From Bacilli bacterium (GTDB lineage: Bacteria > Bacillota_I > Bacilli_A > RFN20 > CAG-826): a stretch of DNA of 35,840 nucleotides. The notes below the pieces were generated by a model that made no database searches, was not told the DNA's origin, and worked only from the letters and a program-made list of their open reading frames with translations. Both the position numbers and the translations under genes were made by a program. Location of the stretch: NCBI GenBank assembly GCA_024399115.1, contig JAKSHZ010000017.1, forward strand, positions 1 to 35,840. Reading direction: 5' to 3'. Of this stretch, positions 12,241 through 13,219 are shown in pieces. The first letter of the stretch is position 1, and the number at the start of each line of letters is the position of its first letter.

Positions 12241-12275
12241 GAGTGGAGGACATTTGGCGTCCTCACTCTTTTTTT
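12241..12275 (+). terminator. Intrinsic terminator after the M48 gene
   Basis: GAGTGGAGGAC / GTCCTCACTC form a stem of 10 pairs with one bulged G and a 7-nt loop, followed by T7. Confidence 0.92.
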
Positions 12276-12285
12276 GATACCGAAA

Positions 12286-12812
12286 TATAATAATCGTGTT
12301 CTTGATAAGAGAATAACATTGGAACCCAGTGAAGTCATCTTGCTGATGGCTGGGGCCCAACCAGAATAGAAGATAATATGGGATACTGTATTACTAACGA
12401 GACCTATATGGTACACGGGATTAAAATACCGCTTTGGTTGGTGGCGCAATACGCTCTTCGATGTAAATGACTACCAGAACAGGCACGACAAGAGGCTCCG
12501 TAGCAATACGTCCCGCGAAAAGATATTAGCCTGAGAAACTATTATCTTCGCTCTCAAAGGAAGTGTTTGGCTTGATGAAAGGTAACTTTCTATAACTGAT
12601 TTGGTAGGTTCGAGTAGGCATATGCCAGCAGGAAAGATCTTCATGCTGAAGCTTGCTGAAAGTTGGAGGATGATATAATTCCTCCCGTTGTTTCGGGTAA
12701 AACCCATTCCAGAAGCCTTAGAGTCGCTCTCTATTGCTCAGCCTGGCGTGAACGTGCATGAACAACAAATTAGAGTAAGTATTGTACGACGAAGGTCGCC
12801 AATGCTTTTTTT
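12286..12812 (+). ncRNA. Long structured non-coding RNA, about 510 nt, class not recognised
   Basis: This stretch is visibly richer in G+C than its surroundings, has no good gene, and is dense in hairpins. Examples: CCCA..GTCATC with GATGGC..TGGG at 12325-12354; a 10-bp stem at 12520-12529/12539-12548 extended by GCG/CGC; GAAAG-GTAA-CTTTC with a GNRA loop at 12577-12590; GGCATATGCC at 12617-12626; nested stems at 12626-12658; GGAGGA/TCCTCC at 12665-12685; GGGT/ACCC at 12695-12705. A TATAAT at 12286-12291 gives a start near 12298, and an intrinsic terminator ends it near 12812. Length and style recall large ornate RNAs such as ROOL, GOLLD or OLE, but I cannot assign one. I found no RNase P, tmRNA or group II intron landmarks. 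Confidence 0.75.
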
Positions 12813-13044
12813 GTTTTTGGACAAAAAGAAAACATCCATTAAGGATGTCCATTGCAGATACGTTGAAGTAATCTGCGAATGTATTGATAACGTCAATACT
12901 CGTTGTGCCATTGGTTTCAATACGACGTAAGTTACGTGTGCTGTAGCCAATGTCATCAGCTAACTCGTCTTGTGTAAGACCGCATGTTAGCCTTAAGGCC
13001 TTAATAGACTTGCCTATTAAGTGTGAATCAATTAATTTGCTCAT
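12718..13044 (-). CDS. Xre/Cro-type HTH regulator, with a terminator inside its reading frame
   Basis: A 108-aa frame. Residues about 8-62 form a classic HTH_3 domain: IGKSIKALRLTCGLTQDELA, then GYSTRNLRRIETNGTTS and VINTFADYFNVS. GGAGG is 8 nt before the ATG at 13044. After MDILNG an intrinsic terminator (12821-12851) lies within the frame, and the last 30-odd codons run antisense to the end of the structured RNA with atypical composition. Either the native stop has been lost (a recently damaged or extended gene), or the mRNA ends without a stop, as in tmRNA-regulated genes such as arfA/brfA. The DNA-binding part looks intact. Confidence 0.65.
   Translation of the reverse strand: MSKLIDSHLIGKSIKALRLTCGLTQDELADDIGYSTRNLRRIETNGTTSIDVINTFADYFNVSAMDILNGCFLFVQKQKKHWRPSSYNTYSNLLFMHVHARLSNRERL
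12779..12812 (+). terminator. Intrinsic terminator of the structured RNA
   Basis: A stem GTATTG..CGAC / GTCG..CAATGC (small internal loop, GAAG tetraloop) is followed by T7, G and T5. It sets the plus strand as the RNA's strand. Confidence 0.8.
12821..12851 (-). terminator. Intrinsic terminator within the Xre-type ORF
   Basis: On the minus strand ACATCC-TTAAT-GGATGT is followed by TTTCTTTTTG. It faces the plus-strand terminator of the structured RNA, only about 10 bp apart, forming a convergent pair. Confidence 0.65.
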
Positions 13045-13219
13045 TTCCATAACCTCCATAATTAACTGAGATCTTTTCATGTTCCTGATTCACTTCTGGA
13101 TTATCAATGAGCCAATATATGCTAATTGGAAAAAGGATTTTTGTAAAGAATTTTGTGATTAAATTTATTAGAAAAATAAAAATGTCCATTTTGTAGATTA
13201 AATAAGTTATTATTTTTCT

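Follow-up and report, generated by a model that had tools for sequence, protein, structure and literature searches.

The structured RNA at 12301-12818 of the window, which is the whole stretch of 35,840 nucleotides that was analysed, is a chromosomal member of the known ROOL family and not a new class. The RNA was accompanied by a convergent gene for a small XRE/Cro protein. Comparison with related loci makes it fairly likely that this XRE is a dedicated regulator of ROOL, probably an activator, whose own output would be limited by its leader and by a non-stop mRNA. ROOL and the convergent XRE gene made up a compact unit, about 0.9 kb long, with the following features.

12247-12263, no strand assigned: candidate operator, a 17-bp dyad AGGACA-N5-CGTCCT, found in the same place in every XRE-linked ROOL
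12286-12291, plus strand: -10 hexamer TATAAT of the ROOL promoter, with a poor -35 position (CACTCT/CTCACT)
12301-12818, plus strand: full-length ROOL RNA (RF03087), by cmscan and covariation in 18 homologues
12317-12322 paired with 12799-12804, plus strand: helix P1 of ROOL, also the stem before the terminal U-tract
12718-13044, minus strand: XRE/Cro (Pfam HTH_3) gene of a ROOL-linked subfamily, convergent with ROOL
12822-12850, minus strand: intrinsic terminator in the XRE frame, GGACATCC-TTAAT-GGATGTTT then TCTTTTTG; the stop codon follows about 110 nt later
13045-13118, minus strand: XRE mRNA leader, with a loop element that can pair with the Shine-Dalgarno flank, weakly here and clearly in relatives
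13119-13147, minus strand: likely XRE promoter TTTACA-17-TAGCAT, a consensus match only

The presence of a discrete structured RNA at 12301-12818, proposed in the preliminary description of this DNA, was confirmed. When the whole window was compared with 4227 Rfam families, RF03087 (ROOL) matched this region on the plus strand with 215.6 bits (E = 1.2e-47), more than twice the Rfam gathering score of 99.1, and model positions 1-574 of 574 were covered. ROOL was the sole match of the RNA region among these families, and the GOLLD, OLE, raiA and HEARO models did not match it. ROOL had been named beforehand among the candidates, with the RNA taken as a diverged member or something new; membership was upheld, and a new class was ruled out by the full-length match. 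The homologues, in which a lack of covarying pairs had been named as the result that would count against such an RNA, showed strong covariation: RNAalifold with 18 sequences from related genomes gave 121 consensus pairs, of which 89 carried one or more two-sided compensatory changes. The folding energy was modestly unusual (z = -2.0); because folding energy alone is weak evidence, the claim of structure was based on the covariance evidence. In addition, the GC content of the RNA was 43.2% compared with 31.8% for the window, a value that 0.3% of the 518-nt windows reached. The covariance-model match ended in the U-tract 3' of helix P1, and a variable linker, differing in length and sequence, interrupted the otherwise conserved ROOL at alignment columns of about 389-434. 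The TATAAT reported at the front of the RNA began exactly at 12286, but the extent first given, 12286-12812, was corrected, the RNA itself running from about 12298-12301 to about 12818. No protein fitted on the sense strand, as had been stated, but the antisense tail of the XRE gene had been missed; it was the only real gene touching the ROOL RNA.

The source genome was a 2.13 Mb assembly of 188 contigs, Erysipelotrichaceae-type, with one ROOL copy and an encoded tmRNA. Its named close relatives were the Erysipelotrichaceae MAGs RUG14810 and SIG217, and the XRE of RUG14810 was 81% identical to that of the window (single-protein search, two loci). The nearest named relative, RUG14810, is a rumen MAG, RUG being the prefix of rumen genomes. 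All the loci compared came from metagenome assemblies or public records. ROOL is usually carried by phages or prophages, in many cases close to tRNA arrays (PMC12286853), and this location, usual but not defining for ROOL, was not found at the window locus. An M48 peptidase was encoded upstream and two short-chain dehydrogenases downstream, together with further cellular genes. A PHROGs scan found no phage structural or integrase proteins among the ten neighbouring proteins, which ruled out a prophage location; the phage-like setting suggested at first gave way to one of chromosomal genes. Moreover, the closest tRNAs were 6.4 and 8.3 kb from ROOL, and no nucleotide homologue was found in phage and plasmid collections. 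The locus shows ROOL as an independent chromosomal unit outside phages.

The XRE gene started at 13044 on the minus strand and ran for 108 codons to the first stop, with residues 1-74 as the conserved part. Its HTH_3 domain (PF01381) was matched above the cut-off (E = 5.7e-9). The linkage to ROOL was examined with a profile from nine ROOL-adjacent XRE proteins against 90 related genomes. The 12 best matches (58-143 bits) all lay within about 2.2 kb of a ROOL, and the next-best match reached 43 bits, giving a hypergeometric P of about 3e-13 in which relatedness is ignored. A generic neighbour was ruled out, as matches away from ROOL scored at most 43 bits. The ROOL genomes without this XRE among the 90 were G039 and G022, the contig of the latter stopping inside ROOL. 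In a wider draw of the order, four more genomes were found by XRE alone, and all four carried ROOL, which adjoined XRE in G124, G147 and G186 and was on a separate contig in G164. ROOL was lacking from four related genomes without this XRE. Furthermore, XRE was the sole neighbour common to most ROOL loci of the order, the other neighbours differing by site. The XRE profile found no relative in viral contigs. Two ROOL copies (C16:15810-16351 and C19:14274-14811) and two XRE copies were present in G186, the second XRE at a contig end on C4. At another locus (L073, 4870-4997), a SAM riboswitch was located about 110 nt from ROOL on the opposite strand.

The phage ROOLs sampled comprised 17 IMG/VR loci recovered by sequence patterns, several of them duplicates and all confirmed by cmscan. 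They lay mostly within tRNA arrays and without this XRE gene. A profile that found all 12 chromosomal HTH genes detected one in 1 of the 17 loci (L162), some flanks being short; with the same reservation about the flanks, this count ruled out the HTH gene as a universal ROOL partner. In one lineage, the phage ROOL was placed directly before tRNA-Ala, tRNA-Ile and a phage tmRNA (L326 599-1961, L330 4773-6081 and L336 1076-2362), these three genes being part of a large tRNA array. A human-gut phage contig (L029, MT839421, 642-2958) carried together an rtcB-like gene, three tRNAs and two HTH genes, the second of which was 67% identical to the HTH gene that adjoins the L. salivarius ROOL. Related HTH genes adjoined tRNAs in L033 and L034 as well.

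The dyad and the leader element were spotted by eye and counted afterwards. Each of the 15 XRE-linked ROOLs had AGGACA-N5-TGTCCT just upstream of its promoter, the gap being N5 without exception, and the window copy had one mismatch; the background expectation was 0.013 per 200 nt. In 27 whole genomes searched with an extended pattern and one mismatch allowed, nearly all ROOL genomes had the dyad at ROOL, and occurrences elsewhere were very rare. A single match, with a mismatch, occurred in one non-ROOL genome, and G039 had none genome-wide. Two dyads about 220 nt apart were observed in G022 (C64:52762-53003), upstream of the ROOL that runs off the contig. These distributions bear on the suggestion that XRE has no part in ROOL control, the two merely travelling together on a small mobile unit and the dyad being a feature of the RNA or of a terminator. 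The ROOL-XRE pair does occupy many unrelated chromosomal sites, and the window dyad, followed by a T-run, scores as a terminator-like hairpin. However, the dyad follows the XRE subfamily and not ROOL alone, being absent at the ROOL of G039 (L018, without this XRE) and at the L. salivarius ROOL; it keeps the exact N5 gap, mostly without a T-run in relatives; ROOL copies without an adjacent XRE gene (G164 C27 and G186 C19) still have it; and no mobility gene is common to the loci. The passenger explanation is very improbable.

In a simple promoter scan, no consensus sigma-70 site was detected on the ROOL strand. The -10 hexamer began 22-23 nt beyond the dyad at most loci, placing the centre of the dyad at about -43 from the inferred RNA start, and the -35 hexamers were poor throughout. 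Such placing resembles that of activator sites overlapping the -35 region, such as those of lambda CI at PRM and the class II CRP sites. A dyad beside the -35 could also be a repressor site, and in that case XRE would block the polymerase at the adjacent -35 and release ROOL once XRE is lost. Many small XRE proteins repress transcription, the dyad lies directly against the ROOL promoter, and XRE kept scarce by its leader and a non-stop mRNA would leave ROOL mostly on, in line with the high abundance in L. salivarius (PMC5643018). Repression is nevertheless rather unlikely, because the dyad stops just short of the -35 and does not cover the -35/-10, at the usual distance of a sigma-touching activator, and because poor -35 hexamers occur at all loci. 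Control of ROOL by XRE has against it that the L018 ROOL exists without this XRE and that the sampled phage ROOLs are mostly without an HTH gene.

The leader element, CGCTCATA...AGCG, carried a loop complementary to the Shine-Dalgarno flank. Loop and flank changed together among XRE genes: AGCTACC/GGTAGCT, GCTTACC/GGTAAGC, AGTCCAC/GTGGACT, AGTTCGT/ACGAACT and AACTACT/AGTAGTT. When flanks were swapped among genes, with the register freely chosen, none of 100,000 permutations reached the observed score, and 3 of 100,000 did so for the 8 non-duplicates. The window copy of the pairing was weak, with 6 pairs at best. No known riboswitch was matched in Rfam by the leader of a relative (L072). For the XRE gene unlinked from ROOL in G164 (L082, C78:10834-11052), the outer stem of the leader differed and the loop CCCAC still matched GTGGG before the start codon.

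The stop codon of the window XRE fell in DNA antisense to ROOL, and the terminator ahead of it, GACATCC-loop-GGATGT then a T-run, was made up of codons of the conserved XRE C-terminus (A)xDILxG. An embedded terminator was present in 14 of 14 main-family XRE genes, and in 13 of them the T-run began 2 to 127 nt before the stop. As controls, 217 ORFs of 120 aa or longer from these loci were examined: two had such a terminator, both of them these XRE genes, and in 39 a terminator followed the stop codon. Exceptions among the XRE genes were L082, L022 and L023, where the hairpin loop contained the stop codon, L081, where the U-tract contained it, and L015, whose XRE had no such terminator. A strictly conserved non-stop status was ruled out by these exceptions; in the sequences compared, the terminator tends to precede the stop but does not always do so. 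Its in-frame position might reflect mere compact packing, with xre squeezed against ROOL and the protein ending at a chance stop: xre abuts or overlaps the ROOL 3' end in many loci, the stop has no fixed position, and the reading frame of the tails lying antisense to ROOL differs. We regard this as possible but somewhat doubtful, because the terminator stays embedded where ROOL is 0.3-2.2 kb away or does not adjoin (L017, L025, L026 and L083), and because LSL_1884, which adjoins the L. salivarius ROOL and belongs to a different HTH subfamily, has an in-frame terminator too.

ROOL identity, XRE linkage, the dyad, the embedded terminator and the leader covariation, all established at the level of sequence, can be joined in a circuit with XRE as a probable activator. 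XRE would bind AGGACA-N5-TGTCCT beside the weak -35 in the ROOL promoter, and this binding would most likely activate ROOL transcription. Two brakes on XRE are predicted. The leader would fold onto its own ribosome-binding site, and the in-frame intrinsic terminator would yield an mRNA without a stop codon, the product of which may be tagged by tmRNA for degradation; in this way tmRNA would limit the XRE protein. ROOL would be made when the brake is lifted, for example if ribosome rescue is overloaded or the leader is opened by something. The tie of XRE control to ribosome rescue is put forward as a hypothesis. A further step, that ROOL cages are part of a response to blocked translation, in which an activator made from non-stop mRNA senses the tmRNA load, is speculative and in our view unlikely. 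The phage ROOLs beside tRNAs and a phage tmRNA (L326, L330 and L336) fit it and are suggestive, within one lineage. With a recognisable candidate operator of the regulator and hints of ribosome rescue, it becomes testable when and by what ROOL is switched on, and what follows if the switch is removed.

ROOL is among the largest structured bacterial RNAs, and its cage structure was solved in 2025. By cryo-EM, ROOL forms an octameric nanocage, a hollow cage of eight chains (PMC12286853). The window copy agreed with the ROOL of that study in its full-length model match, covarying structure, variable linker at the same place and the rumen-type habitat of its relatives. It differed in being chromosomal and not in a phage or tRNA array and in its short linker; furthermore, it was paired with a dedicated XRE gene, an operator-like dyad and what would be a regulated leader. 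The combination of ROOL, XRE, dyad and leader pairing was not described in the ROOL literature searched, which did not include the full texts of Weinberg 2017 and Ling 2025; the surroundings of ROOL, and not the RNA itself, appear new. For the L. salivarius UCC118 megaplasmid, the HTH neighbour LSL_1884 downstream of a lncRNA was already noted by Cousin 2017, whose authors considered that the HTH product might affect the expression or stability of the RNA (PMC5643018). This lncRNA was found to be a ROOL (130.4 bits). The two loci are alike in having ROOL with a nearby HTH gene (78 nt away in L. salivarius) that bears an in-frame terminator, but the L. salivarius gene is of another HTH subfamily and in same-strand orientation, and the AGGACA-N5-TGTCCT dyad is lacking there. 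For BrfA of B. subtilis, an in-gene terminator was shown experimentally to give a non-stop mRNA under trans-translation control (PMC6881298). Like brfA/arfA, XRE has an intrinsic terminator in the coding region ahead of the stop; unlike them, it encodes a DNA-binding protein and not a ribosome rescue factor, and its non-stop status and control by tmRNA are putative. By sequence, the best solved relative of XRE was the N-terminus of PezA (2p5t, E = 9.9e-10). XRE shares the HTH fold with PezA and with phage-434-CI-like XRE regulators; unlike PezA, it is a single short domain without a toxin partner, and its partner is a non-coding RNA.
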